Positions 1 to 14,266 of a DNA stretch of 64,000 bases are shown here, piece after piece. A program made the translations under genes and the position numbers. The first letter of the stretch is position 1; each line of letters opens with the position of its first letter. The notes beneath the pieces were generated by a model. The model had not been told where the DNA came from, made no database searches, and saw only the letters and a list, made by a program, of their open reading frames with translations. Source of the stretch: Nocardioides sp. PD653-B2 (GTDB lineage Bacteria > Actinomycetota > Actinomycetes > Propionibacteriales > Nocardioidaceae); the NCBI RefSeq assembly GCF_002117935.1, contig NZ_BDJE01000036.1, positions 1-64,000 on the forward strand. The letters are read 5' to 3'.

Positions 1-729
1 GCCGTCGCCGAGCTGCTCGACATCGCCGGGGTCAGCTTCGGGGTCCTCGGCAACGGCGAGACCTGCACCGGCGACCCCGCCCGCCGCGCCGGCAACGAGT
101 TCGTCTTCCAAGGCCTCGCCCAGCAGAACGCCGAGACCTTCACCGAGTACCGGGTCAAGAAGGTCGTCTCGACCTGCGCGCACTGCTTCAACACCCTCAA
201 GAACGAATACCAAGAGTTCGGCATCGAGCTCGAGGTCGTCCACCACACCCAGCTCCTCAACCGGCTCGTGCGCGAGGGCAAGCTCACCCCGATCAAGGAC
301 GGCGAGGGCGCCCACCAGCGCTCCATCACCTACCACGACCCCTGCTTCATCGGCCGCCACAACGGCGTCTACACCCCACCCCGCGAGCTCCTCGAGATCC
401 TCCCCGGGGCCGAGTTCGTCGAGATGGAACGCAACTCCGAGAAGTCCTTCTGCTGCGGCGCCGGCGGCGCCCGCATGTGGATGGAAGAGAACATCGGCGA
501 ACGCATCAACGTCAACCGCACCGTCGAGGCCATCAGCACCGGCGCCGACCAGATCGCCGTCGGCTGCCCCTTCTGCCGCGTCATGCTCTCCGACGGACTC
601 ACCGCCCAACAAGCCAAGGGCGAAGCACGCGAAGAAGTCGAGGTCCTCGACGTCGCCCAGATGCTCCTCGCCTCCGTCAAGGGCGAGGCAGGCGGGTCGC
701 TCGCGCGTTCAGCTCACGGATCGGCGTGA
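1..729 (+). CDS. (Fe-S)-binding oxidoreductase, CCG-domain C-terminal part (5' end outside window)
   Basis: The frame is open from base 1, so this is the C-terminal ~242 residues of a larger protein. It shows the cysteine-rich CCG repeats of heterodisulfide-reductase/glycolate-oxidase-type iron-sulfur subunits: STCAHC, YHDPC, KSFCCGAGG and GCPFC. Full-length actinobacterial relatives have N-terminal membrane and ferredoxin domains and are thought to pass electrons between a dehydrogenase and the quinone pool. The usual homology stops near DVAQMLLASVKGE. The last ~17 codons (ending SLARSAHGSA) are exactly antisense to the 3' end of the convergent gene at 677, so the native C-terminus was probably replaced at a junction. 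Confidence 0.85.
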   Translation, partial: AVAELLDIAGVSFGVLGNGETCTGDPARRAGNEFVFQGLAQQNAETFTEYRVKKVVSTCAHCFNTLKNEYQEFGIELEVVHHTQLLNRLVREGKLTPIKDGEGAHQRSITYHDPCFIGRHNGVYTPPRELLEILPGAEFVEMERNSEKSFCCGAGGARMWMEENIGERINVNRTVEAISTGADQIAVGCPFCRVMLSDGLTAQQAKGEAREEVEVLDVAQMLLASVKGEAGGSLARSAHGSA

Positions 730-1777
730 CGACGTCGGCGTACGGCTCGTCCCACGGGTCCTTCAGCCCCCAACCCCGCGCAGTGTTCTCGACATACCCG
801 CACCAGTGCCAGCCCAGGAACCAGGGCTCAGCGAGCAGGGGCTCGAGCGCGGCGATGTAGTCCGCGCCCCGGGCCGCCTGCGATTCCAGTGCACTCGTCC
901 GGTGCGGGTTGAGGGTGGTGGGCGTCCAGTTGCCGACATCGGCGAGGAGCACCGGCTTGCCGGTGTACTCGTGCCACGCCCGCAGGCGGCGCACCATCTC
1001 CTGGCGACCCTCCGCGGTCGGCTCCGGGAAGTACTGCACCGAGAGGACGTCGACGAAGTGCTTCATCGCGGTGAGTACCGCCCCGGGGATCCCCTTGTTC
1101 CCGTTGTAGCGGTCCCCGAGCACGAGGTGGTTCGGATCCGCGGCACGGATGTGCCTGGTGATGGTCTCGTAGTACCGGTAGGCGACGTCGTACAGCTTGA
1201 TGTTGCGGGACCGCTCGTCGAGGCCGCGCAGGATCGCGAAGTCGGCGCCGCTGGCGTGCGGCAGCCAGGCGGGGATGTCGACCAGGAAGTAGCCGATCAG
1301 GTTCTCGCTGTCGACGTGGTCCACGCAGATGCTGCGGGCGAGGTACTCGCAGTAGGCGTCGAACTCCTCGGAGTAGACGTCGGGGAACCACGGGTGTCCG
1401 TTCCAGTCCTCGATCTCCGAGACGCGGATCTGGACGACGTAGGGCATCCCCGACGAAATCAGGTCCGCCGCAGACCACGGCAGCGAGTGGCCGAGGTCGA
1501 TCGGCGCCCCGAACCAGTCGAGGGCCTCACCCCAGCCGCCGGTGACGTACTCCTGGGTCCAGCCGATCGTGTTGAAGCCCCAGGAGCGGAGGTCCTCGAC
1601 GACGCCGTCGGCGATCCACGACCGGCGCGAGCCGTACCGCTGCTTCCACAGGTCGTGGTTGTGGGTGTACTTCAGGTTCGTCTCGTCGACGTGGTTGAGG
1701 CCGACGCTGACGAACGGCTCGCCCTGCGGGTCGACCAGGGTCCATGCGCCGTCGCTGTGGCTCAGTCGGAACGTCAT
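677..1777 (-). CDS. TIM-barrel glycoside-hydrolase-like protein, paralogue 1 (agarase-like fold)
   Basis: 366 aa, cytoplasmic (no signal peptide), last gene of a three-gene operon of paralogues. The ATG at 1777 is chosen because ATGA overlaps the stop of the upstream gene and GGAAGG precedes it; the longer frame upstream is antisense noise. The fold signature is that of clan GH-A agarase-like proteins: FVSVGLNHVDE near the N-terminus, then LRSWGFNTIGWTQEY, NLIGYFLVDIPAW after beta-4 and GKPVLLADVGNW near the C-terminus. At the two positions where retaining enzymes of this clan carry catalytic glutamates, aspartates appear instead. It is very close to the paralogue at 2954-4126. Substrate is unknown; the context suggests plant oligosaccharides. 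Confidence 0.6.
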   Translation of the reverse strand: MTFRLSHSDGAWTLVDPQGEPFVSVGLNHVDETNLKYTHNHDLWKQRYGSRRSWIADGVVEDLRSWGFNTIGWTQEYVTGGWGEALDWFGAPIDLGHSLPWSAADLISSGMPYVVQIRVSEIEDWNGHPWFPDVYSEEFDAYCEYLARSICVDHVDSENLIGYFLVDIPAWLPHASGADFAILRGLDERSRNIKLYDVAYRYYETITRHIRAADPNHLVLGDRYNGNKGIPGAVLTAMKHFVDVLSVQYFPEPTAEGRQEMVRRLRAWHEYTGKPVLLADVGNWTPTTLNPHRTSALESQAARGADYIAALEPLLAEPWFLGWHWCGYVENTARGWGLKDPWDEPYADVVTPIRELNARATRLPRP

Positions 1778-2961
1778 CGCGCTGCACCTTCCGTTCGGTG
1801 GGACCGCTTGCTCACGGCGGCGTCCAGGTTCGCGTACAGATGCGAGTTGAAGTCCTGCATGATCTCGGTGCATTCGTACGGTTCGTCGAAGCGACTCTTG
1901 AGTCCGTACTTGCGCACCTTGTTCTGCATGAAGCTGCACCAGCCCCAGCCCACGACATAGCCCGAGGCGTAGGCCTTCTCGACCATCTCCACGTAGGCCT
2001 CGCCGCGCTCCTTCTCGTCCTGGACCCGCAGCTTCTCCCACCCTCCCTCGAACAGCGGGTCGTCCCGCGTCAGGAGGTCGTTGGGCGCCACGAACGCCGA
2101 GTCCGAGAGGAAGACCGGCTTGTCGCAGAGGCGCTGCCACGCGTCGAGGCTCTCCCGCATGATGTCGAACGGGTGGTACCAGTTCACCGAAAGGACATCG
2201 ACGTACTCCCCCATCTCGGTGAAGACCACGGGCGGCGGCTCGGACGGTCCCGTCGGCAGCGTGTCCGCCCCCTCCACCAGGTCACCGAAGATCAGGTGGT
2301 CCGGGTCGTAGCGTCGGATGGCGTCGTGCGTGACCTGGTAGTAGCGACGAACGACGCGCCGCAGCGCCTCGTGGTCGTCCAAACCCTCCAGTGAGGGCGT
2401 GACCTCGCGGAACCGGGCGATGTCCCAGTGCGGCCGCGCGGTGTAGGCGTAGCCCACGAGGTTCGGGTCGTCGGCCAGCGGGGCACACCAGTACCGCGCC
2501 TGGTAGTCGCACCAGTCCTCGAAGTCCGTGCCGAAGACGTCCTTGTAGACCGCCTGTTGGTTCCATCGCTCGAAGCTGAGGAAGTCGATGTGCGGGATGT
2601 AGGGGAACCCGCTGCCGCGGTACTCGTCGGGCGTCCACTCCGGCGAGTGCCGCATCTGCGGGCTGACCCATTGCTTGGTCCAGGCCAGCGCGTTGAACCC
2701 CCACCCGCGCAGGGATGCGACGACGCAGTCGGAGATCCACGAGGAGCGGGACCCGTACCGCTCCCGGTACACGTCGATGCTCTCGGCGTACTTGAGCGCC
2801 GAGTCGTCGACATGCGCGATGCCGACGATGAAGAAGGGGTGGCCCTCGGGTGTCACCAGCCGCCAGCCGCTGTCGGACTTCTCGGTGCGGAAGAACCCCG
2901 TCGCAGCCAGCTGGGTCCGCAGGTCGCCGCCGTAGCGGTCGAAGCCGTCGCGCTCAGCCAT
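1774..2961 (-). CDS. TIM-barrel glycoside-hydrolase-like protein, paralogue 2 (divergent)
   Basis: 395 aa, cytoplasmic, middle gene of the operon. It overlaps its upstream neighbour by 8 bp and its downstream neighbour by 4 bp (ATGA), so translation is probably coupled. It aligns with its neighbours over the whole length (FFIVGIAHVDD, LRGWGFNALAWTKQW, NLVGYAYTARPHW, DKPVFLSDSAFVAPN) but is clearly more divergent. The GYFLVDIPAW segment reads GYAYTARPHW and the GNW segment reads SAFVAP, so any substrate or active-site chemistry probably differs. A role as a heteromeric or non-hydrolytic partner is possible. The function is not recognised beyond the TIM-barrel family resemblance. Confidence 0.55.
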   Translation of the reverse strand: MAERDGFDRYGGDLRTQLAATGFFRTEKSDSGWRLVTPEGHPFFIVGIAHVDDSALKYAESIDVYRERYGSRSSWISDCVVASLRGWGFNALAWTKQWVSPQMRHSPEWTPDEYRGSGFPYIPHIDFLSFERWNQQAVYKDVFGTDFEDWCDYQARYWCAPLADDPNLVGYAYTARPHWDIARFREVTPSLEGLDDHEALRRVVRRYYQVTHDAIRRYDPDHLIFGDLVEGADTLPTGPSEPPPVVFTEMGEYVDVLSVNWYHPFDIMRESLDAWQRLCDKPVFLSDSAFVAPNDLLTRDDPLFEGGWEKLRVQDEKERGEAYVEMVEKAYASGYVVGWGWCSFMQNKVRKYGLKSRFDEPYECTEIMQDFNSHLYANLDAAVSKRSHRTEGAAR

Positions 2962-4126
2962 CGGCCTGCTCCCGCCCGCGCTCGTGGACCGCGACGTTGA
3001 AGTCCCGCATCCGGCTCACGAGGTCGTCGTAGGGCTCGTCCCACGGGTCCTTGACGCCCCAGCCGCGCCCACCGACGTTCTCGACGTAGCCGCACCAGTG
3101 CCATCCGACGAGCCACGGCTCGTCGACGATCGCCCCGATCGCCGCCACGTAGTCCTCACCCCGCTCCGCCTGGTTCTCCAGGCCGCTGACCCGATGGGGG
3201 TTCAGCTCGGTGGGTGCCCAGTTGCCGAGGTCCGCGTTGATCACCGGCTTGCCGGTGATCTCATGCCAGCGCGCCAGGTCCTCGCGCATCCCTTGGCGTG
3301 ACGCCTCGGTCGGCTCGGTGAAGTACTGCACCGAGAACACGTCCACGTGGGGTTGCATCGCACGGAGCACGGCCTCCGGGATGCCCTTGTTGCCGTTGTA
3401 GCGGTCGCCGAGCACGAGGTGGTTCGGGTCGTAGCGCCGGATGTGCCGCGTGATCGTCTCGTAGTACCGGCTCGCGACGTCGTACAGCTTCTGGTTGCGA
3501 GCGTCCCCGTGGAGACCCTTGAGCTGGGGGAAGTCATCGCCCGCCGCATGCGGGAGCCAGGCCGGGATGTCAACGAGGAAGTAGCCGATCAGGTTCGGGT
3601 CGTCGGCATGGTCGAAGCAGATCGATCGCGCCAGGTAGTCGCAGTACACGTCGAAGTCGTCGGAGTACACGTCCTTGAACGACGGATAGCCGTTCCAGTC
3701 CTCGATCTCCTGGACGCGAAGCTGGAGCACGTACGGCATGTTGGCGGTCCGGAAGTCGGCAGCACCCCAGGGCGCCGTCGAGTGGCCGAGGTCGATCGGG
3801 TCTCCGAACCAGTCCAGGGCCGTGCCCCAACCGCCGCTGATGTACTCCTGGGTCCAACCCACGGTGTTGAAGCCCCAGGACCGCAGGTCGTGGACGACGC
3901 CGCGGCGGATCCACGTGTCCCGGTCTCCGTACCGATCCCGCCAGATGGCGGCGTTGTGGGGGAACTTCAGGTTGGACTCGTCGACGTGGTTCATGCCGAT
4001 GCTGACGAAGGCCGCACCGTCGGGGTCCACCAGGAACCAGCGTCCGGCGGACTGCTCCACCCGGAAGAAGCCTGTCGCTGGGAACCGCCGCCCGGCGTCC
4101 CCGCCGTAGGCACTGAACTCTGTCAT
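2954..4126 (-). CDS. TIM-barrel glycoside-hydrolase-like protein, paralogue 3 (operon head)
   Basis: 390 aa, first gene of the leftward operon, start ATG at 4126 preceded by AGAAGGG. Motifs are FVSIGMNHVDESNLKF, LRSWGFNTVGWTQEY, DPNLIGYFLVDIPAW (D186) and GKPVINADLGNW (D299), with the conserved C-terminal WHWCGYVENVGGRGWGVKDPWDEPYDD. No signal peptide or membrane segment is seen. The general shape matches GH50/agarase-like clan GH-A enzymes, but the expected Asn-Glu acid/base and Glu nucleophile are not found at the matching places. A divergent MarR gene starts 97 bp away and probably controls it. Product name is inferred from the fold, not from a characterised homologue. Confidence 0.6.
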   Translation of the reverse strand: MTEFSAYGGDAGRRFPATGFFRVEQSAGRWFLVDPDGAAFVSIGMNHVDESNLKFPHNAAIWRDRYGDRDTWIRRGVVHDLRSWGFNTVGWTQEYISGGWGTALDWFGDPIDLGHSTAPWGAADFRTANMPYVLQLRVQEIEDWNGYPSFKDVYSDDFDVYCDYLARSICFDHADDPNLIGYFLVDIPAWLPHAAGDDFPQLKGLHGDARNQKLYDVASRYYETITRHIRRYDPNHLVLGDRYNGNKGIPEAVLRAMQPHVDVFSVQYFTEPTEASRQGMREDLARWHEITGKPVINADLGNWAPTELNPHRVSGLENQAERGEDYVAAIGAIVDEPWLVGWHWCGYVENVGGRGWGVKDPWDEPYDDLVSRMRDFNVAVHERGREQADG

Positions 4127-4222: not shown

Positions 4223-4756
4223 GTGCACGAATTCGACAGCTCCGCGGCACCACCGTTCGCCGCCGCGGTCCGCAGCGTTCTCACCGCCAGTCGAGCCCTC
4301 GTGGCGGTGAGCGCCCGGTCGCTGGCAGCTCTGGGCGAGGAGGTCACGCTTCCGGAATACCGCGCTCTGGTCCTCCTCGCACGGACCGGCGGGAGTCGCG
4401 TCATCGACCTCGCCGGCGCCATGTCGCTCAACCCGTCGACCGTCTCGAGGATGTGCGACCGACTGCTCCGCAAGGGCCTGGTCTCGCGCACCTCGGAGGA
4501 GAGCGACCGGCGCGCAGTGCGGTTGACGTTGACCGAGACCGGCCGCGCCCTGGTCGACGAGGTGACGCGCGCCCGCACCGTCGAGATCGAATCGATCGTC
4601 GCGCGGGTCTCCCCCGCCCACCGGGCCCTCCTGGTCGCCGGCTTCCAGGCCTTCGCCGACGCCGCCGGCGAGGTCGGTGATGACCTGTGGCCCACCGCGG
4701 TACTGGGATGGCTCCCCCTGCCCGGAGATTCCTCGGCGCCGGGAGAGGGCGGCTGA
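4223..4756 (+). CDS. MarR family transcriptional regulator
   Basis: 177 aa with a GTG start. It has the MarR winged-helix domain: the recognition helix region is LAGAMSLNPSTVSRMCDRLLRKGLVSR and the wing is SEESDRRAVRLTLTETG, flanked by dimerisation helices. Family members are usually repressors released by small ligands. The gene is divergent from the three-gene TIM-barrel operon and is the obvious local regulator for it. The tail after about residue 155 (WLPLPGDSSAPGEGG) is low-complexity. It is convergent with the GH43 gene. Confidence 0.85.
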   Translation: MHEFDSSAAPPFAAAVRSVLTASRALVAVSARSLAALGEEVTLPEYRALVLLARTGGSRVIDLAGAMSLNPSTVSRMCDRLLRKGLVSRTSEESDRRAVRLTLTETGRALVDEVTRARTVEIESIVARVSPAHRALLVAGFQAFADAAGEVGDDLWPTAVLGWLPLPGDSSAPGEGG

Positions 4757-4827: not shown

Positions 4828-6387
4828 TCAGCTGCTGCGGGCGCCTGCCGGGTTCCCGGTCGGTCCGGGTTCGTAGTCGAACCAGTCGAACGCGCAGACG
4901 CCGCGCTCGGCGACCATCCCGATCACCCGGCCGGTGAAGCCGCCGGCCACCTCGGTGGAGAAGTAGCGGCCGTCGAGCTCGGCGAGGACCTCGACGACGC
5001 CGTCCCGCTCGACCGCCAACCGCACCACGTCCGGGCCCGGTAGCTCGCCCAGGCCGCCGGGCACGACGGCGTGCGGTGACACGTCGACGACGAGGACGGC
5101 CTCCTCCTCCCAGGCACGGGCAGCCACCTCGACCTCCGCAGGGCCGATCCGGGCCCGGCAGACGACCCGGCCGTCGCCGACGAGGATGGCGACGTGGTGC
5201 CGCTCGTCGATGCGGACCGCCAGGCCGCCCACCCCGCGCCGGGCGTCGACGCGGGTCCGGATGCGGCAGGCGAGGTGCTGCTGGCGGCGCCCGACGAACG
5301 CGGGGCGCGACCCGTCGAGACCGTCGTCGGTGGCCGAGAGCACGAGCCAGCCCGGCCGCTGCGAGGTCGAGGCGAAGGACTCCGGACGGCTGCGCGGGGA
5401 CACCCACACCGGCGCCAACGCAGGCTCGTCGAAGTCGTCGCGGACCGTCTCGTCGTCGCGGGCGTCGACGGCCCAGGACACGTCGACGTGATCCTCCACC
5501 GGTGCCGGGACGGGCCAGCCGCCGCGGAAGTCGACCGGGGTCAGGAAGGTCTCACGCCCGAGCACATGGAACTGGGGCGTGCCTCCACGAGGCCGCACTC
5601 CGAGCACCAGCGCCCACCACGTGCCGTCCGGCGCGCGGACCAGGTCCGCGTGGCCCGTGCTCTGGATCGGCCGCTGCGTGCTGCGGTGGCTGAGCACGGG
5701 ATTGTCGGGACATCCCTCGAAGGGGCCTCCCGGCCGGCGAGCGCGGGCGACGGAGACCGCATGGCCGCGCTCCGTGCCGCCCTCCGCGATGAGCAGGTAC
5801 CACCAGTCGTCGACGTGGTACAGGTGCGGCGCCTCGGGGTAGGCCAGCCCCGACCCCGACCAGATCGGTCGCGGCTCCTCCAGGAGCAGCCCCTCCTCCG
5901 GGTCCACGCGAGCCTGCAGGATCTGGTGGAGGTAGGTGCCGTCGGGCTCGGTGCCGGCCCAGGTGAGCCAGCACTCGTCGCCGTCCCAGGCCAGGTCCGG
6001 GTCGATTCCCCACGCCCCCGCCACGGGGACCGGGTCCGACCAGGGACCGGTGGCGCTCGGCGAGGAGAGGATCACCACCTCGGGGCGCGAGGTGAGGCTG
6101 GTCGCGATCCAGAACCGCCCGCCGTGGTGCCGCAGCACCGGGGCGAACACCCCGCCGGATGCCGGCACGGTCGACAGGTCGACCTGGCCGGGCCGTTGGA
6201 GCGCATGGCCGATCGGATGCCACCGGACCAGGTCCCGGCTGTGGAAGAGCGGCAACCCCGGGAGGTACTCGAACGACGAGCAGGCGAGGTAGTAGTCCGC
6301 GCCCACACGACACACCGACGGATCCGGGTAGAAGCCCGGCAGCACCGGGTTCGGCCAACGGCTCCCGCCACCCCGGACCCCGGTCAC
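4828..6387 (-). CDS. Glycoside hydrolase family 43 (alpha-L-arabinofuranosidase or beta-xylosidase)
   Basis: 519 aa, last gene of the seven-gene transporter/hydrolase operon. The GTG at 6387 overlaps the stop of the upstream GH31 gene (GTGA), which decides the start. The five-bladed beta-propeller begins at once with NPVLPGFYPDPS, where D22 is the expected general base. WGIDPDLAWD carries the pKa-modulating Asp and YPEAPHLYHVDDWWYLL the catalytic acid Glu. The last ~190 residues form the concanavalin-like beta-xylosidase C-terminal domain typical of two-domain GH43 enzymes. No signal peptide, so it acts on imported oligosaccharides. The sequence alone does not separate arabinofuranosidase from xylosidase; arabinose genes nearby favour the former. 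Confidence 0.85.
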   Translation of the reverse strand: MTGVRGGGSRWPNPVLPGFYPDPSVCRVGADYYLACSSFEYLPGLPLFHSRDLVRWHPIGHALQRPGQVDLSTVPASGGVFAPVLRHHGGRFWIATSLTSRPEVVILSSPSATGPWSDPVPVAGAWGIDPDLAWDGDECWLTWAGTEPDGTYLHQILQARVDPEEGLLLEEPRPIWSGSGLAYPEAPHLYHVDDWWYLLIAEGGTERGHAVSVARARRPGGPFEGCPDNPVLSHRSTQRPIQSTGHADLVRAPDGTWWALVLGVRPRGGTPQFHVLGRETFLTPVDFRGGWPVPAPVEDHVDVSWAVDARDDETVRDDFDEPALAPVWVSPRSRPESFASTSQRPGWLVLSATDDGLDGSRPAFVGRRQQHLACRIRTRVDARRGVGGLAVRIDERHHVAILVGDGRVVCRARIGPAEVEVAARAWEEEAVLVVDVSPHAVVPGGLGELPGPDVVRLAVERDGVVEVLAELDGRYFSTEVAGGFTGRVIGMVAERGVCAFDWFDYEPGPTGNPAGARSS

Positions 6388-8708
6388 GACGAGACGAGCC
6401 GCATCCGCACGGTGGCGTCCGCGCGGAGCGGGCTGACGAGCAGGCCACGTTCCTCGACGGTCGCCGACGCGTCGAGCAGCTCGGCCACCTCGTCGACGCC
6501 GGCCAGCAGCACCCGCCACTGAGGAGAGCCGACGCCCTGGACCTCGAGCCAGTCGCCGGCACGACGGACGACGAAGGTCGCCGGGTCTCCCTGTCGGGGC
6601 GCCGGCACCGACACCGTGCGCTCCCCCTCGACGGGGCCGAAGACCTCGAGCGTGACCCCGTCGCGGTAGTCGTACTCCGGCTCGTCGTCGCGGCCACCGA
6701 CCGGGATCACCGCTCCCGGCCGGACGAGGAGCGGCAGCGTGGCGAAACCGTGCCGCTCACGCACCCACCGTGGACCCTCGACCACGGCGCCGGTGAGGTA
6801 GTTGGTCCAGCGCCCCTCCGGCACGTAGAAGTCGACGTCGCCCTCGTCATCGAAGACCGGCGCGACGAGAAGGTCCGGTCCGAGCAGGTACTGCCGGTCC
6901 AGGCCCGGGCAGGCGGGGTCGTCGGGGAACTCCAGGACCATGGGCCGCAGCACCGGGATGCCCTCCTCGTGCGCCTCCCGCGCGGCTCCGTAGAGGTACG
7001 GCATCAGCCGCATCTTCAGGCGCGTGAAGCTGCGCAGCACCTCCACCGACTCCTCGTCGAAGATCCACGGCACCCGGTAGGACTCGCTGCCGTGCAACCG
7101 GCTGTGGGAGGACAGCAGCCCGAACGGCACCCAGCGCTTGTAGAGCGCGGGGGTCGGCGTCCCCTCGAAACCGCCGATGTCGGCGGTCCAGAAGCCGAAG
7201 CCCGACATCGCGAGCGACAGCCCGCCCCGCAGGGACTCCGCCATCGACACGTACGACGGCTCCGGGTCGCCGCCCCAGTGCAACGGGTACTGCTGGGAGC
7301 CGACCGTCGCCGACCTCGCGAAGACGACGGCGTCGTCGTCGCCACGTCGGGAGCGGATCGCCTCGACGACGGTGCGGTTGTAGAGCAGGGGGTAGTAGTT
7401 GTGCATCAGGTGCGGGTCGGAGCCGTCGTGCCACTCGACGTCGACGGGGATCTGCTCCCCGAAGTCGGTCTTGAAGCTGTCCACCCCCAGGTCGAGCAGT
7501 CCCTGCAGGTGGCCGGTGAACCAGTCCCGCGCCTGGGGGTTGGTGAAGTCCACGATGCCCATCCCGGCCTGCCACGTGTCCCACTGCCACACGTCCTCGG
7601 TGCCCGCGCGGCGCACCAGGTACCCGTGGTCGCGGGCCTCCTCGAAGAGGTCGGACTGCTGGGCGACGTAGGGGTTCATCCACACCGACACCCGCAGACC
7701 CCGCTGCTTGAGCCGGGCCAGCATCCCGGCGGGGTCCGGGAACGTGCGTCGGTTCCACCGGAAGTCGCAGAGGTGGAACTCCTGCATCCACAGGCTGTCG
7801 AAGTGGAAGACGCTGAGCGGGATGTCGCGGGCAGCCATCTCGTCGACGAGCCCGGAGACGGTCTCCTCGTCGTAGGACGTCGTGAACGACGTCGACAGCC
7901 ACAGGCCGAACGACCACGGCGGTGGCAGGCCCGGCCGCCCGGTGAGCGCGGTGTACTTGCGCAGGATGTCCTTGGGGTCGGGGCCGTAGATCACGAAGTA
8001 GCGCAGCACCTGCCCGGGCACGCTGAACTGGACCCGGGAGACGACCTCGGACCCGACCTCGAACGAGACCCGGTCGGCGGAGTCGACGAACACGCCGTAC
8101 CCCTGGTCGGTGAGGTAGAAGGGGATGTTCTTGTAGGCGAGCTCGCTGCTGGTGCCGCCGTCGTCGTTCCAGCAGTCGACCACCTGGCCGTTCTTGACGA
8201 AGGACGTGAACCTCTCGCCCAGGCCGTAGACCGACTCGCCCACTCCCAACGCGAGGCGGTCGAACGTGCGGACGCCGTCCTCGGTGCGCGCCCGCCCCAT
8301 GCACTTGCGGTCACTGGAGGTGAGGGTTTGTCCCCGTGCCCGGAAGCGAAGCGCCCAGTCGTCGCCGAGGTCGGCGTGCACCGACAGCTCTCCCGTCTGC
8401 AACACGGCCTCCGCCGCGTCGACCGTGATCTCGACGGGGTGGTCCGATCCCGACTGCAGCGCGAAGCGCGGGCCGCGCTCGCGCCCGCCGAGGTGGTTCG
8501 CGACGGTGACGGCGACCACGTCGGGCATCGGCGAGGAGCACTCGACGGTGACGACCGGACAGCTGACGGAGTCGCCGACGCCGCGGAGCCGCCGCGTGGG
8601 CACGTGCACCCGGAAGCTGCGCTCGGCGGGCACGACGTCGTACGCCGCGACCGCGTGGTCGAGCGTGACCTCCGGCCGGATGCGCCAGTAGCCGTCATTG
8701 AACTTCAT
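6384..8708 (-). CDS. yicI: Glycoside hydrolase family 31 alpha-xylosidase (YicI type)
   Basis: 774 aa, the same length class as E. coli YicI, and it opens with the typical MKFNDGYWRIRPEV. The nucleophile is D415 in DSFKTDFGEQIP and the acid/base is D481 in PLHWGGDPEPSY, one residue off the YicI numbering. Family members release alpha-D-xylose from the non-reducing end of xyloglucan-type oligosaccharides such as isoprimeverose. It has no signal peptide. It overlaps its upstream gene by 14 bp and its downstream gene by 4 bp, within the operon of a CUT1 transporter. Released xylose would need xylose isomerase and xylulokinase, which are not in this window. Confidence 0.9.
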   Translation of the reverse strand: MKFNDGYWRIRPEVTLDHAVAAYDVVPAERSFRVHVPTRRLRGVGDSVSCPVVTVECSSPMPDVVAVTVANHLGGRERGPRFALQSGSDHPVEITVDAAEAVLQTGELSVHADLGDDWALRFRARGQTLTSSDRKCMGRARTEDGVRTFDRLALGVGESVYGLGERFTSFVKNGQVVDCWNDDGGTSSELAYKNIPFYLTDQGYGVFVDSADRVSFEVGSEVVSRVQFSVPGQVLRYFVIYGPDPKDILRKYTALTGRPGLPPPWSFGLWLSTSFTTSYDEETVSGLVDEMAARDIPLSVFHFDSLWMQEFHLCDFRWNRRTFPDPAGMLARLKQRGLRVSVWMNPYVAQQSDLFEEARDHGYLVRRAGTEDVWQWDTWQAGMGIVDFTNPQARDWFTGHLQGLLDLGVDSFKTDFGEQIPVDVEWHDGSDPHLMHNYYPLLYNRTVVEAIRSRRGDDDAVVFARSATVGSQQYPLHWGGDPEPSYVSMAESLRGGLSLAMSGFGFWTADIGGFEGTPTPALYKRWVPFGLLSSHSRLHGSESYRVPWIFDEESVEVLRSFTRLKMRLMPYLYGAAREAHEEGIPVLRPMVLEFPDDPACPGLDRQYLLGPDLLVAPVFDDEGDVDFYVPEGRWTNYLTGAVVEGPRWVRERHGFATLPLLVRPGAVIPVGGRDDEPEYDYRDGVTLEVFGPVEGERTVSVPAPRQGDPATFVVRRAGDWLEVQGVGSPQWRVLLAGVDEVAELLDASATVEERGLLVSPLRADATVRMRLVSS

Positions 8709-11028
8709 CGCGCACCTTCCGGCCGTCCAGGACAGCGGCGCGCAGGTCGTCGGTCCCGTAGCGGGCCATCAGCTCCTGGTGCGACCAGATCGTGACGGCC
8801 GAGATCCACGGGAAGCAGGTCTTGTTCCCCTCGCCCTTGCCCCGGCCGCCGAACTCGGTGCCCACGAACATCGGGTCGTCGGCCCAGCACCAGCTGATCA
8901 GCACCCCCTCCTCCTGCAGCCCCGGCCGGGCGTAGCCCCAGTCCTTGCCGGGCAGCGCCACGTTCTCGTTGCACGCGTTGAGCAGCAACACGGCGATCTC
9001 GAGGAAGCCCTCGTCGGCGCCGAGGCGGGCCAGCTCGACGAGGTCGGGGACGGCGATGACACCCATCGGGTGCACGTAGCCCGCTCCCGGCGCGTCGCAG
9101 CCCGGCCAGCCCGTGCTGCGGAAGCCCTGCTCGGCCAGCGTCGAGCCCTCCGGGAGCGGGACGTCCCAGAGCCAGACCCAGGAGCACACCAGCCAGGCAC
9201 CGACGGTGGCGCGCTCGAGGTAGGTCCTCTCGCCGGTCGCACGGTGCATCTCCAGCTGGCCCCGGAAGGCGAAGATGATGCTCTCGTGGTCGACCAGCTG
9301 CGGCCGGGCGTACATGCTGTCGTGGATGCCGCCGTTGAACTTCAAGCCCTCGACGAAGGTCGTGTACGCGAAGTCGGTGGCACGACGCGCGACGCCGAGC
9401 CACTCGTCCGCACCGGTGAGGGCGTGCAGCTTCAGCAGGAACGGCACGACGGTGGCCGTCGACGACGTGCGCTGGACGTCGGTCTGGCCGAACCAGAAGT
9501 CGGGCTCGGTGAGGGGTCGGCCCTCGAGGTCGTAGGCGCGGTACCACGCGCCGTCCTCCCGCTGGGCATCCGCGAGGAACCGCGCGAACCGGCCGGCCGC
9601 CTCCAGCCACGCCGGGTGCTCCACCCCCTGGGCGCGTTCCAGCTCGACGGCGAGGAGCAGCGCGTCGTACTCCTCGGCCAGGCAGCGCAGGTAGGTGCCG
9701 TCACGGCCGGCGAGCGCCTCGATGACGGGCCGCAGGTGCTCGTGCAGCGGCCCCATGAGGGTCTCCAGGTCCTCGCCGGGCTCGGCGTACGCCAGCGGCA
9801 GCAGCAGTCCGGTCCACCAGCTGTCGTAGCGCTCCCGGTCCAGGTTGTAGAGGCCGTGGACCAGGCCGCCCGGGTTGCGCAGGGCGTCCTCGACGTAGAA
9901 GTCGACCACCGACAGGGCGCGGAGGCGGTTCTCCTGGGCGTCCTCCCGGTCGACGGCACGCAGGAGACAGCACGCGTTGAGCAGGTTCTGACCGGTGAAG
10001 CCGTACTGGATGACGTTGCTGAGCTGCGTCCCGTCCTGCGGGTGACAGTTGGTGACGAAGCCCGCGGCGGTGGTCGTCGCGGACCTGGCGTAGTACGGCA
10101 GGAGTGCGTCGATGCGCGCGTCCGTGATCACCTGCAACGGCGCCGTGAGCTCCACCGGGCGCGGCCGTAGCTGCGCCACCCGGGCCTGCCAGACGTCGCG
10201 GAGTGCGTCGTGCGGAGTGCTGGCGGGGCGCACGGCCAGGCCGTAGGACACGGTCAGCTGCTCTCCTGGGACCGCCGGCCAGTACGCACCCCACCCCGGC
10301 CGGGTCCGGACGACCAGGGCGTGCGTGCCGTCCGGCTCCACGAACGGGTAGGCGGCGGACAGCCGGCAGCTGCCCGCGGCCACCGGCTCGAGACCCAGGC
10401 TGCCGATGTCGGTGCGCTGCAGGAAGCGGCGCTGGCCGCGGACCCGGTCCGGCGGCGGGTCGAACTCCGGTGGGTCGACGCGGGAGACGGCCCAGGCCAG
10501 CTCGGACCGCGGCTCGTAGGCGAGGATGCTCAGCGCCGAGAGCCGGTCGTCGCGGTAGAACAGCGTCTGCGTGCCGGCGTAGTCGTCGACGTGGTCGCCG
10601 TCGAGGTCGTTGAGGTCGTACATCGCTCCCGGGGCGAAGAAACGGAAGTCCTCGAAGGTCGCGTCCACCGTCGGAAGGACCTCGAGGACGAGGCGCACCC
10701 CCGCGCCGTCGCTCGGAGCCTCGGTCACCGCCAGGCTGCGGTCGACCCGCCACTCGTCGGCTGCCACCCTGCTCCAGGTGTCCTCGACGCGGCAGTGCAC
10801 GCCGTGGTCGGCCCTCACCAGCGCCGTCCCCACGAGCAGGTCGTCGCCGGTGGCGGTGACGTCGTCGTACCCCACCGCGACCCGCCCTTCCGTGGCGTCG
10901 GCGGGGGGCCCAGCAGGGTGCAGGGTGTCGACGACCACCGGCGCGGGCGCCTTGGCCACCGGTGTCTCGTCGAGCAGCCACACCAGACCCCAGCCCGACG
11001 CGCCGCGGTGGGGACGCAGGTCGATCAT
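8695..11028 (-). CDS. Unrecognised ~780-aa protein, paralogue of the upstream gene (putative helical-barrel glycosidase)
   Basis: 777 aa; ATG at 11028 overlaps the upstream stop as ATGA, which fixes the start. It aligns end to end with the neighbour at 11025-13394. Shared blocks are FFAPGAMYDLNDLDGDHVDDY, FVTNCHPQ, IQYGFTGQN, WWTGLLLPLAYAEPG, GGIHDSMYA, GYVHPMGVIAVPDL, KDWGYARPGLQEEGVLISW and GKGEGNKTCFPW. The first ~300 residues look beta-rich; the remainder is rich in aromatic helices, as in (alpha/alpha)6 six-hairpin glycosidases. DLDGDHVDD resembles a calcium loop. No signal peptide. I cannot name the family; the operon context argues for a carbohydrate-active enzyme on imported oligosaccharide. 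Confidence 0.5.
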   Translation of the reverse strand: MIDLRPHRGASGWGLVWLLDETPVAKAPAPVVVDTLHPAGPPADATEGRVAVGYDDVTATGDDLLVGTALVRADHGVHCRVEDTWSRVAADEWRVDRSLAVTEAPSDGAGVRLVLEVLPTVDATFEDFRFFAPGAMYDLNDLDGDHVDDYAGTQTLFYRDDRLSALSILAYEPRSELAWAVSRVDPPEFDPPPDRVRGQRRFLQRTDIGSLGLEPVAAGSCRLSAAYPFVEPDGTHALVVRTRPGWGAYWPAVPGEQLTVSYGLAVRPASTPHDALRDVWQARVAQLRPRPVELTAPLQVITDARIDALLPYYARSATTTAAGFVTNCHPQDGTQLSNVIQYGFTGQNLLNACCLLRAVDREDAQENRLRALSVVDFYVEDALRNPGGLVHGLYNLDRERYDSWWTGLLLPLAYAEPGEDLETLMGPLHEHLRPVIEALAGRDGTYLRCLAEEYDALLLAVELERAQGVEHPAWLEAAGRFARFLADAQREDGAWYRAYDLEGRPLTEPDFWFGQTDVQRTSSTATVVPFLLKLHALTGADEWLGVARRATDFAYTTFVEGLKFNGGIHDSMYARPQLVDHESIIFAFRGQLEMHRATGERTYLERATVGAWLVCSWVWLWDVPLPEGSTLAEQGFRSTGWPGCDAPGAGYVHPMGVIAVPDLVELARLGADEGFLEIAVLLLNACNENVALPGKDWGYARPGLQEEGVLISWCWADDPMFVGTEFGGRGKGEGNKTCFPWISAVTIWSHQELMARYGTDDLRAAVLDGRKVRDEVQ

Positions 11029-13394
11029 CGGCTGCCTGCCGCGGCACTGCCGCCGGTCCAGTCGCCACCCCGGGCCGGCATGCCGGTCTGGGAGCGCACC
11101 TGCTCCATGTCGGCCGACCCGTAGCGGTCCACGAGCTTCCAGTAGCACGACATCGCCACCGCGGGGATCCACGGGAAGCAGGTCTTGTTGCCCTCGCCCT
11201 TGCCCCGGTCGCCGAAGGCCGTGTCCTCGAAGATGGGGTCGTCACCGAGCCACCAGCTGATCAGGTACCCCTCCTCCTGGAGGCCCGGGGACGCGTATCC
11301 CCAGTCCTTCCCAGGTACGGCGACCGTCTGGTTGCAGCCGTGGAGCAGCAGCTCGGCGACGTCGACCATCGACGGGTCCTCGGCGAGGCCTGCGATCTCG
11401 ATGAGCTCCGGCACGGCGATCACCTCGAACGGGTGCACGTACCCCGTCGCACAGGTGTCGCAGGCGCCGATCCCCGTCGAGCGGAAGCCGTGCTGCGCCA
11501 GCGTGCTCGTGCTCGGCAGCGGGACGTCCCACAGCCAGGTCCAGGTCGCGAACAGTCGGGCCGCTCGGATGGCGCCCACCCGGAAGTACTCACCGCCGAC
11601 GGCACGGTAGAGCTCCAGCAGCCCGAGCATCGGGTAGAGGATTCCCTCGTTGTCGATGAGCTGGCCCTTGGCGTAGATCGGGTCGTGGATGCCGCCGTTG
11701 AACCGCACCGGGTCGACGAGGCGCTCGCGCACGAAGTGCCCCGCGCGCACGGCGGCGGCCAGGAACCTCTCGTCGCCGGTCAGCTCGGTCAGCTTCACCA
11801 GCGTGGGGATCGGCGTCGAGCTGGACGACTTCTGCTCGTACGGGGTCGTGCCGAACCAGATCTCGGGCTGGGTGAGCGGCTTGCCCTCGTGGTCGTACGC
11901 CCGGTACCACGACCCGTCGGGCTCCTGGACCCGCAGGAGGAACTCGCCGTACCGACGCACGGCCGCCAGCCACTCCTGGTGCTCGCGCCCGCGGTCGCGC
12001 TCGAGCTCGTAGCCGAGGAGAACCCCGAAGGCGCTCTCGGACATGCAGCGCAGGTAGGAGCCCTGGAGCTGCTGGAGCTGGGGGATCTCCTTCTCCCACT
12101 TCTTGTAGATCGGCCCCATGAGCTCCTCGAGGTCTCCCCCCGGCTCGGCGTACGCGAGCGGGAGCAGGAGCCCCGTCCACCAGCAGTCCATCTTCTGCTT
12201 CGGGGCGTTGTAGAGGTCATAGAACATCCCCGGCTCCGCGAGGTGCCCCTTGTCCACGAAGAAGTCCAGGGCCCGGACGCCGTGCGCCGTCCACTCGTCC
12301 TCGCCGAACCGCATCATGAGGTAGGCGTTGAGGGTGTTCTGCCCGGTGAAGCCGTACTGGATGATGTCGGCGAGCTGCTCGCCGACCTGCGGGTGGCAGT
12401 TCAAGACGTAGCCGGCCGGCGCGTTGGGGTCGACCGAGGCATCCGTCTCGAGGTAGTAGTGGTCGAGGGACTCCGCGCGCAGGCGCGTGATCTCGTCCAG
12501 CGACGCCGGGAGCTCGACCGGCACGGGCCTCAGGTCCGCGACGCGGCGCCGGAAGCTGCCCCACATGGCCTCGTGGAAGTCCGGGTACGGCTCCGCCCGG
12601 AGCTGGTAGGAGACCTCGAACGGGTGCTCGGAGGTCACCGGCCACATCGCCTCCCACGCCGGTCGCTCGACGAGCAGGAGCGCATGCGTGGACTCCCCCT
12701 CGTCGAAGGGGTAGCAGGCGTCGAGGAGCAGCTGCGGCATCGTGTCGTCCACCGGCTCGTAGCCGATGCTCCCGATGTCGCCGTCGTGGAGGAACAGGCG
12801 CTCCTTGTCGGGACGGTGCGGCAGCTCGTCCCACTCCGGGACATCGGCCCGGATGAGCGTCAGCGCGACGCCCCGCTTCTCGTGGTAGGCGGTGAAGCTG
12901 AGCGCGTTGAGGCGATCATCGCGGAACCGCATCTTCAGGCCCGGCAGGTAGTCGTCGACGCCGTCCTCGTCGAGGTCGTTCTTGTCGTAGACGGCGGAAG
13001 GAGCGAAGAAGCGGAAGTCCGCGAGGCGCCCGCCTTCGGGGAACGGGGTCGCGGCACGCAGCCGGAGCCGGACCCCCTCGGGGCCGCCGTCGCCCTCGAC
13101 CGCCAGGGTGCGGTCGACCTGCCAGGTGTCGTCATCGGCTCGGGACCACCGGTCGCGGACTCGCGCCTGCGCGGACCCTCCGACCGGTACGGAGCAGGAC
13201 GCCTGCAGGACCTCTCCGTCCCACTCGGCGTGCTCGTACCCCGCCTCGTGACGCGTCACCTGCTCGGCGCCCGCGGACCACGTCTCGAGGACCACGGGTG
13301 TCGGGATGCGCAACACCTCCTCGTCCCTCGCACCGCGGAGGCTCAGTGTCAGGGCGACACCGTCGGACGAGTCGTGGTGGGTGAGGTGCAGCAT
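11025..13394 (-). CDS. Unrecognised ~790-aa protein with calcium-loop motif (putative helical-barrel glycosidase)
   Basis: 789 aa, starting at ATG 13394 with a strong AAGGAG six bases upstream. Tandem paralogue of the next gene. It has an N-terminal beta-rich part containing D140-L-D-E-D-G-V-D-D148, a DxDxDGxxD loop of the kind that binds calcium. A helical C-terminal part follows with LNCHPQ, IQYGFTGQN, CWWTGLLLPLAYAEPG, FRSTGIGACDTCATGYVHPFEVIAVPELIE and KDWGYASPGLQEEGYLISWW. No signal peptide, hence cytoplasmic. It sits directly after the permease genes and before its paralogue, a GH31 and a GH43 gene. Enzymatic function is inferred from neighbours and aromatic-rich conserved blocks only; no family was recognised. 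Confidence 0.5.
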   Translation of the reverse strand: MLHLTHHDSSDGVALTLSLRGARDEEVLRIPTPVVLETWSAGAEQVTRHEAGYEHAEWDGEVLQASCSVPVGGSAQARVRDRWSRADDDTWQVDRTLAVEGDGGPEGVRLRLRAATPFPEGGRLADFRFFAPSAVYDKNDLDEDGVDDYLPGLKMRFRDDRLNALSFTAYHEKRGVALTLIRADVPEWDELPHRPDKERLFLHDGDIGSIGYEPVDDTMPQLLLDACYPFDEGESTHALLLVERPAWEAMWPVTSEHPFEVSYQLRAEPYPDFHEAMWGSFRRRVADLRPVPVELPASLDEITRLRAESLDHYYLETDASVDPNAPAGYVLNCHPQVGEQLADIIQYGFTGQNTLNAYLMMRFGEDEWTAHGVRALDFFVDKGHLAEPGMFYDLYNAPKQKMDCWWTGLLLPLAYAEPGGDLEELMGPIYKKWEKEIPQLQQLQGSYLRCMSESAFGVLLGYELERDRGREHQEWLAAVRRYGEFLLRVQEPDGSWYRAYDHEGKPLTQPEIWFGTTPYEQKSSSSTPIPTLVKLTELTGDERFLAAAVRAGHFVRERLVDPVRFNGGIHDPIYAKGQLIDNEGILYPMLGLLELYRAVGGEYFRVGAIRAARLFATWTWLWDVPLPSTSTLAQHGFRSTGIGACDTCATGYVHPFEVIAVPELIEIAGLAEDPSMVDVAELLLHGCNQTVAVPGKDWGYASPGLQEEGYLISWWLGDDPIFEDTAFGDRGKGEGNKTCFPWIPAVAMSCYWKLVDRYGSADMEQVRSQTGMPARGGDWTGGSAAAGSR

Positions 13395-13444
13395 CAATGC
13401 TCCTTCGAAGTGGCGGTGGTGGGGGAGGTGCGGGCTGTGGGTGT

Positions 13445-14266
13445 TCAGCCGGTCGAACCGCCGACAGCGAGGCCCTTCTTGAGGCCTCGCTGGGCGAGGA
13501 AGGTGAAGGCCAGGACCGGCAGCACGTAGAGGGATGCGCCGGCGGTCACCGGACCGAAGTCGAAGCCCACGCTGGTGATCCCGCTGGCGAGCCCCACGGG
13601 CACGGTCTGTGCCTCGGGGCTGCGGGTGAGGGCGAGAGCGAAGATGAACTCGTTCCACGCGGTGATGAAGCTCAGCGACGCCGCCACGCTCACCGCCGGC
13701 AGTGAGATGGGGAGCGCGATCCGCGTGAAGATCGCAAACGGCCCGAGCCCGTCGACCTCCGCAGCCTCCACGATCTCCCCCGGGATCTCCCGGAAGAAGC
13801 CCTCGAGGATCCAGACGATCAAGGGCAGCTCGATCGAGACGTAGGTGATGATCAGCGCCCACGGGGTGTCGAGCAGGTTCGCCGACTTCATGAACAGGAA
13901 GTACGGGATCATCAAGGTGACCGGGGGGAACATGCGGGTGGCGACGATGACGCCGAAGAGCACCCCACTGAGCCGGTAGCGGAACCGCGCGAAGCCGTAG
14001 GCCGCGGGCGCCCCGAGGACGAGCGCGATCACCGTGCTGGTCGTCGACACCACCAGGCTGTTGCGGAAGTAGGACAGGAAGTTCCCGCTCAGCGTGACCC
14101 GGTACTGGCTGAGGGTCGGCGGGTCGGGCAGGAGGGTCGGCGGGATCGAGAGCAGGTCGCGGTCGTACTTGAACGACATCAGCGCGGTCCACGTGAACGG
14201 TGCGAGCACGTAGAGCGCGATCAGGACGAGCACGCCGTAGGTGAGGAACTTGCGACCGATGGCCAT
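13445..14266 (-). CDS. Carbohydrate ABC transporter permease, MalG/CUT1 type
   Basis: 273 aa integral membrane protein with about six transmembrane helices. The cytoplasmic EAA loop, which docks the ATPase subunit, is visible as EIVEAAEVDGLGPFAIFTRIALP. It opens with MAIGRKFLTYGVLVLIALYVLAPF. It lies one base after the partner permease gene and 50 bp before the 789-aa gene. With the upstream permease and binding lipoprotein it forms the membrane part of an oligosaccharide importer. No ATP-binding subunit is encoded nearby, so a shared MsmK-like ATPase elsewhere is expected. Confidence 0.9.
   Translation of the reverse strand: MAIGRKFLTYGVLVLIALYVLAPFTWTALMSFKYDRDLLSIPPTLLPDPPTLSQYRVTLSGNFLSYFRNSLVVSTTSTVIALVLGAPAAYGFARFRYRLSGVLFGVIVATRMFPPVTLMIPYFLFMKSANLLDTPWALIITYVSIELPLIVWILEGFFREIPGEIVEAAEVDGLGPFAIFTRIALPISLPAVSVAASLSFITAWNEFIFALALTRSPEAQTVPVGLASGITSVGFDFGPVTAGASLYVLPVLAFTFLAQRGLKKGLAVGGSTG

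Follow-up and report, generated by a model that had tools for sequence, protein, structure and literature searches.

What might three tandem genes for TIM-barrel proteins be doing when the usual catalytic glutamates are absent from their products? The question is raised by the first 4.1 kb of a 64,000-nucleotide stretch of the genome of Nocardioides sp. PD653-B2 (contig NZ_BDJE01000036.1; hereafter, the window), where a first-pass annotation made from the sequence alone had noted three tandem paralogous open reading frames (ORFs) at 677-4126; they are present, on the minus strand, and are called here P0003, P0002 and P0001, from the first gene to the third. By profile and predicted fold, the family to which this trio belongs is nearest to the agarases of glycoside hydrolase family 50 (GH50). 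The reading favoured here, which is given an even chance, is that the trio proteins are cytoplasmic, non-canonical enzymes processing sugar bonds, accessory to a redox (3-keto) pathway by which anhydrosugars or small glycosides are broken down, where both the reaction and the substrate are what we infer.

A predicted GH50-like fold with a different set of conserved residues

The Pfam search of the three proteins gave zero matches at E<=1, and the sole NCBIfam match was a chance CysN match of P0001 (E 0.31); neither search turned up a family known to use the residues described below. The PDB sequence search with P0003 alone revealed GH50 agarases (E 5e-18), the family profile matched 4bq4 (hmmsearch, E 2e-31) and 5t3b (E 5e-26), and hhalign of the family against 5t3b gave 99.5%. 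AlphaFold 2 modelling predicted confident folds for P0003 (mean pLDDT 94.4) and P0002 (92.5). A Foldseek search with the P0003 model returned GH50 in its first 17 rows (E 3e-24 vs 2e-12 for the next family), and a VIA search returned GH50 in its first seven, the best match being 5t3b (Z 33.0, rmsd 2.9, 348 residues aligned); the next family in VIA, mostly GH2 glucuronidases with Z up to 26.5, is taken as a likeness of the model at the clan level. With Aga50D (4bq2-4bq5), AgWH50C (5z6p), PfGH50B (6xj9) and BpGH50 (5t3b) the family shares the (β/α)8 barrel, predicted in the model and typical of clan GH-A, the N-terminal hairpin motif ATGFFR...LVDPDG and the GxHW histidine common to agarases, and the P0003 model is 20-25% identical to them in structural alignments; unlike the GH50 agarases, which carry an N-terminal carbohydrate-binding module, proteins of the trio family are about 390 aa long and have none. 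Common fold and ancestry with GH50, in a family that has no name, is the best explanation of these similarities.

The active site was compared in an alignment of 68 rows (A3), containing the trio and 65 other sequences from many phyla; it was built from 64 of the 78 loci retained in the genome scan described below, the trio and locus L006, and the 14 loci dropped were near copies or close relatives, together with L023 and L084, which have short translations. PMC11079163 lists Glu534 (acid/base), Glu695 (nucleophile), Asn533, Glu757, Arg752 and Phe742 as active-site residues of Aga50D. In the profile alignment to 4bq4/4bq2 (residue number taken as file position + 43, by our own count) and in A3, N533 corresponds to D186 of P0003, E534 to I187, E695 to D299, F742 to C345 and R752 to R354, and E757 falls in a stretch deleted from the trio family, so that the arginine alone is retained of the six. 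The acid/base position 187 is non-acidic in every one of the 68 rows, being occupied by Ile (31), Cys (19), Val (9), Ala (6), Arg (2) or Gly (1), and Glu is likewise absent throughout from the nucleophile position 299; the overlay that had been proposed in search of two correctly placed glutamates, carried out at the level of sequence, profile and overall fold, showed neither. The first-pass annotation was therefore right about the missing glutamates, and it numbered D186 and D299 of P0003 correctly; of the aspartates that it placed at both catalytic positions, D299 does stand opposite Glu695, but D186 stands opposite Asn533, the acid/base position being Ile187. Taken by itself, the stretch around 533/534 has a low score (2.4 bits), and the profile tools place a three-residue gap there against 5t3b; the 4bq4 alignment is gapless there and agrees with a comparison of GYFLVDIPAW with two GH50-type sequences, GVFIDNEKSW of Catenovulum (P0007) and GYFMRNEPEW of Mesobacillus (P0008, a short ORF), which, like the 4bq4/4bq2 alignment, bear out the Asn-Glu ascribed to GH50 after GYF.

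Conservation across the 68 rows is complete at H47, D299, C345 and R354 (68/68 each) and nearly so at H343 (67), D186 and R242 (66 each), D241 (65, with Glu in two more) and Q267 (64). H343, R242 and R354 also occur in GH50 agarases, whereas His47, Asp186, Asp241, Gln267, Asp299 and Cys345 do not, and these six are the putative site residues peculiar to the trio family. To our knowledge, no clan GH-A enzyme has a site resembling this conserved one, and the literature search turned up no report of a GH50 protein with a catalytic aspartate or with non-conserved catalytic residues. The suggestion of a new catalytic variant is thus supported as a candidate, namely, a GH50-like clan GH-A barrel in which both glutamates are gone and the replacing aspartates are conserved.

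It had been claimed that all three proteins keep the same scaffold motifs; P0003 and P0001 do (NHVDE, WGFNT, GYFLVDIPAW, AD[LV]GNW, WHWCGY), but for P0002 the claim was too strong, since its counterparts are AHVDD, WGFNA, GYAYTARPHW, LSDSAF and WGWCSF. P0002 lacks E140, D186, R242, Q267 and H343 and retains H47, D241, D299, C345 and R354. GYAYTARPxW, LSDSAF and GWGWC recur in a copy, 66% identical to P0002, that is encoded at 11150-12319 of locus L016, from a Paenibacillaceae metagenome-assembled genome (MAG), where it adjoins one P0003-type gene, with a second 7 kb off, in a cluster that also holds a levoglucosan dehydrogenase (LGDH) gene. In the tree, P0002 and this copy group together with 100/100 support, apart from the P0003 clade, on long branches that leave their deeper place unsure, and by score the P0002 type occurs only in the window genome and the L016 MAG among 293 genomes of the order and the genomes of 50 family loci. 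P0002 was considered as a decayed duplicate, and this was rejected, given that a copy in another phylum shares the altered site and that the pair has a branch of its own. The middle gene is, then, not merely a changed paralogue, as it had first been described; judged by sequence, it is a member of a conserved subfamily of its own, and its product may be a conserved partner of the other two or carry out a second activity at a site that differs from theirs.

Several relatives show further variation. A member from a Poribacteria MAG (L062:3924-5069) has lost D186, D241 and Q267 and retained H47, D299 and C345, an altered-site type like P0002. Loci L072, L074 and L077 (Opitutia, Bacteroidales and Opitutaceae MAGs) contain arrays of 4-7 recruited superfamily ORFs, some of them partial; among these is c16, a sister type (with GYYYDREVGW, SDQ and PQHV, for example) that retains the β-7 Asp and Cys and not Asp186; c16 (479 aa in L074) was at first taken for an unrelated neighbour, which was rejected when its profile recruited the trio family itself. 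On a plasmid of Mesobacillus foraminis (L101:2869-4039), a GH50-like ORF that is short but has its NE motif intact is directly followed by a gene with a group II intron maturase domain, and the ORF is perhaps interrupted by the intron.

Distribution and genomic company

When species were scanned with one genome each, 247 stretches matched, and from these the 78 loci were retained. With the window genome counted each time, 6 of 396 genomes in the phylum of the window, 3 of 293 in its order and 2 of 58 relatives gave family matches; in the second of these relatives the match is C-terminal (1e-9). None of the other 36 genomes of the genus, which are among these relatives, gave a family match, and the trio therefore looks acquired. 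Haloarchaeal plasmids carry distant members in which the key residues are the same, and two haloarchaeal relatives retain H47, D186, D241, Q267, D299, H343 and C345; at least one distant member, in Salinigranum, is annotated as 'beta-agarase' yet lacks the catalytic residues.

Neighbours within up to 10 kb on each side were counted for 69 of the 78 loci (nine near copies dropped; L040, L056 and L060 in no group), which differ in length, using profiles that were each built up from one annotated seed; the oxidoreductase class comprises GFO/IDH/MocA, SDR and Zn-ADH proteins. The underlying tree used cut rows of P0006, P0007 and L023, and L014 and L023's own match were assigned to the P0003 clade by 65-66% identity, not by the tree. 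The 29 loci of the P0003 clade are accompanied by parts of small-sugar ABC importers (24 loci), oxidoreductases (24), xylose-isomerase-like barrels (20), alpha/beta hydrolases (19) and ROK proteins (9). For the 11 loci of a Streptomyces-type clade, the respective numbers are 3, 6, 0, 3 and 0, and for the 26 loci of the remaining, partly marine group they are 4, 10, 3, 1 and 0, with sulfatases beside 9 loci of that last group. All three plasmid loci, one from Streptomyces and two from haloarchaea, have both importer parts and an oxidoreductase.

LGDH, the dehydrogenase of levoglucosan, a sugar made in fires, is a frequent neighbour; the copy in L029 scores 711 bits with the LGDH profile NF052479, the cut-off of which is 650 bits. 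Genome searches covering 50 of the 78 loci found LGDH over the cut-off in 14 of 29 P0003-clade genomes and in none of the 21 others tested; ten of these 14 have it within 15 kb of the family member on the same contig, and four on other contigs. None of 14 control genomes has it. In the background, LGDH occurs in 2 of 396 genomes of the window's phylum, one of which is the window genome (1/395 without this centre), and in 2 of 348 genomes of the phylum of P. athensensis (G715), one being P. athensensis itself (1/347), which gives 2/742 with the centres excluded. The copy of the window genome (719.7 bits) is on contig C11, in a levoglucosan-type cluster within a 19.9 kb region (L098, G000:C11:33500-53400), together with a second GFO/IDH/MocA gene, an LgdB1-like and another xylose-isomerase-like gene, an ABC ATPase, a permease and two ROK genes; no trio-family member and no binding protein recognisable by profile were found in this region.

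Levoglucosan breakdown is described in PMC7676230 as C3 oxidation, β-elimination, hydration and reduction. In 14 of the 29 genomes, the P0003 clade lies in, or co-occurs with, lgdA clusters of the LgdA-LgdB1-LgdB2/B3-LgdC pathway as presented by Kuritani 2020 (PMC7676230) and Kaur 2023 (PMC10066097), and it shares with them the small-sugar importer, GFO/IDH/MocA and PF01261-type neighbours; the trio family is, however, none of the pathway's enzymes. It is not named in the parts of the two papers that were consulted, and the literature on levoglucosan catabolism and eliminases turned up nothing on it. A possible functional parallel is offered by the OGE/CGE 3-keto-glycoside β-eliminases, TIM barrels that act after C3 oxidation; according to PMC10628242, they have a His/Asp/His Mn2+ site and a weakly coordinating Glu.

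Candidate reactions of the family

The nearby small-sugar importers and sugar dehydrogenases suggest cytoplasmic work on a small sugar and not on agar, and inspection by eye, made without a predictor, found no signal peptide in P0003. According to the favoured reading, the trio proteins are probably cytoplasmic, with a GH50-like fold and a rebuilt active site; P0003 and P0001 would be catalytically active and would break or rearrange the C-O bond at the anomeric carbon of an imported small glycoside or anhydrosugar, most likely one that an oxidoreductase has already turned into a keto-sugar. Their chemistry would be of the acid-base type (elimination/hydration or substrate-assisted), centred on Asp299, Asp186 and His47, and not a Glu/Glu double displacement, and the two proteins would extend levoglucosan-type catabolism from outside its core. 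The family is widespread, the window proteins have no significant Pfam or NCBIfam match, and the genes found around the family suggest that anhydrosugars and small glycosides are processed by a redox route, in which, according to PMC10066097, steps are still unassigned.

Several points weigh against this reading. The Fisher tests on LGDH, which favour it (p 9e-5 for the clade vs the other genomes tested and 3e-20 for the clade vs the background), treat genomes as unrelated, and the background searches scored 4-5 candidates per genome vs up to 30 in the clade search. LGDH over the cut-off is lacking in 15 of the 29 clade genomes, the clade itself has a support of 85/97 (not starred), the tree does not settle the place of P0003 and P0001 inside it, genes of the SDR and ADH types occur commonly, and there was no random control region for the neighbour profiles. 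The window trio does not lie beside LGDH, which is on a different contig (C11), and adjoins a GH43/GH31 cluster with a CUT1-type importer; none of the neighbour families searched for was found in the first 33 kb of the window. Since the neighbour guild was not found there and the trio lies beside this cluster, its role in the window may differ from that of its relatives. Lastly, neither of the two background LGDH genomes gave a family match, in a search without a positive control (an earlier search of one of them, G166, gave none either), so that the family does not seem to accompany the pathway everywhere, and no trio-family gene figures in the levoglucosan cluster of B. smithii described in the part of PMC7676230 that was consulted. 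For these last two reasons the role is put as accessory; that of a core levoglucosan enzyme was judged unlikely on the two background genomes.

One alternative, unlikely on the present evidence, is that the proteins are ordinary retaining hydrolases, with Asp299 as a shortened nucleophile and an acid/base that has migrated to strand 3 (Glu/His142 or Glu140). Asp299 aligns with the GH50 nucleophile in 68/68 rows, position 142 is Glu in 46 rows and His in 19 (Gln in 2, Ala in 1), position 140 is Glu in 56, and GH43 and GH31 hydrolases belong to the window context; on the other hand, Glu140 differs in 12/68 rows, and the neighbours of the P0003 clade are importers and redox enzymes. We know of no clan GH-A member combining such an Asp nucleophile with an acid/base migrated in this way, which also counts against this explanation.

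The favoured reading has a more specific version, which is rather doubtful as a whole: a keto-sugar lyase/hydratase, i.e., a GH50-derived barrel that, instead of Glu/Glu hydrolysis, would cleave 3-keto-glycosides or 3-keto-anhydrosugars. The residue at the Asn533 position of GH-A enzymes contacts the sugar 2-hydroxyl; if so here, Asp186 would be placed to abstract the proton at C2 of the 3-keto-sugar, Asp299 or a His would act on the leaving oxygen or on water, and P0002 would be a second, differently built subunit or step. If true, a glycoside hydrolase fold would have been turned into a keto-sugar lyase/hydratase.

It is improbable that the proteins are non-hydrolytic isomerases, epimerases or metal-dependent hydro-lyases acting on a free keto-sugar, e.g., replacing the hydratase LgdB2/LgdB3. 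The LGDH loci L013, L015, L016 and L019 have one xylose-isomerase-like gene within 10 kb, and LgdB1 occurs alone in 126 organisms of the 265-sequence set of PMC10066097, both of which would suit such a replacement; yet L018, L027, L029, L031, L042 and L061, likewise from LGDH genomes, carry 2-4 xylose-isomerase-like genes beside the family member, and there are LGDH genomes in which no family member was found. Sugar-binding pseudoenzymes (a sensor, chaperone or regulatory subunit) that have lost catalysis would fit the loss of both canonical catalytic residues, the further conserved residues missing from P0002 and the overlapping genes, which suit a complex, but are still less probable, as a dead site would drift, whereas a different acidic, His and Cys set is retained from haloarchaea to Firmicutes and the P0002 type is 66% identical across phyla.

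Layout of the trio and adjoining genes

The coordinates of the trio and of the regulator gene next to it are given in Table 1. The three genes form one overlapping series: P0003 and P0002 share 8 bases and P0002 and P0001 share 4, where the ATG of P0001 overlaps the stop of P0002, and translation of the trio is therefore probably coupled. The longest ORF for P0001, 677-2140, starts inside the neighbouring gene. P0001 is 68% and P0002 40% identical to P0003, and P0001 lacks about the first 20 residues of P0003.

Table 1. Positions of the trio genes, of two codons of P0003 and of the adjacent regulator gene in the window.
Feature	Position	Strand	Remarks
P0003, first gene of the trio	2954-4126	minus	390 aa; GH50-like (β/α)8 protein (predicted)
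P0002, middle gene of the trio	1774-2961	minus	395 aa; separate conserved subfamily (by sequence)
P0001, third gene of the trio	677-1777	minus	366 aa from ATG at 1777; P0003-type
Asp299 codon of P0003	3230-3232	minus	GH50 nucleophile position (Aga50D Glu695); hand-counted from 4126
Asp186 codon of P0003	3569-3571	minus	GH50 Asn533 position; hand-counted from 4126; next codon is Ile187
MarR-family regulator gene	4223-4756	plus	divergent from the trio, ~100 bases from it

From its position, the MarR-family protein is a possible regulator of the trio. Its divergent gene lies between the trio and the adjoining GH43/GH31 operon, and the view that the trio is plainly part of that operon was rejected. 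The operon includes a GH43 gene with a GH43_C2 domain and a gene for a YicI-type GH31 alpha-xylosidase (1134.9 bits, NF007940), at 4828-8708 on the minus strand, a pair that suggests the breakdown of a xylose-bearing oligosaccharide. Two large proteins without a Pfam match, alike by eye, are encoded on the minus strand at 8695-11172 and within 11025-14192, flanked by the GH31 alpha-xylosidase and CUT1-type permeases; a PDB search with the first of them (8695-11070) gave a weak epimerase match (E 0.028), a faint likeness to N-acylglucosamine 2-epimerase, and the two are possibly new carbohydrate enzymes.

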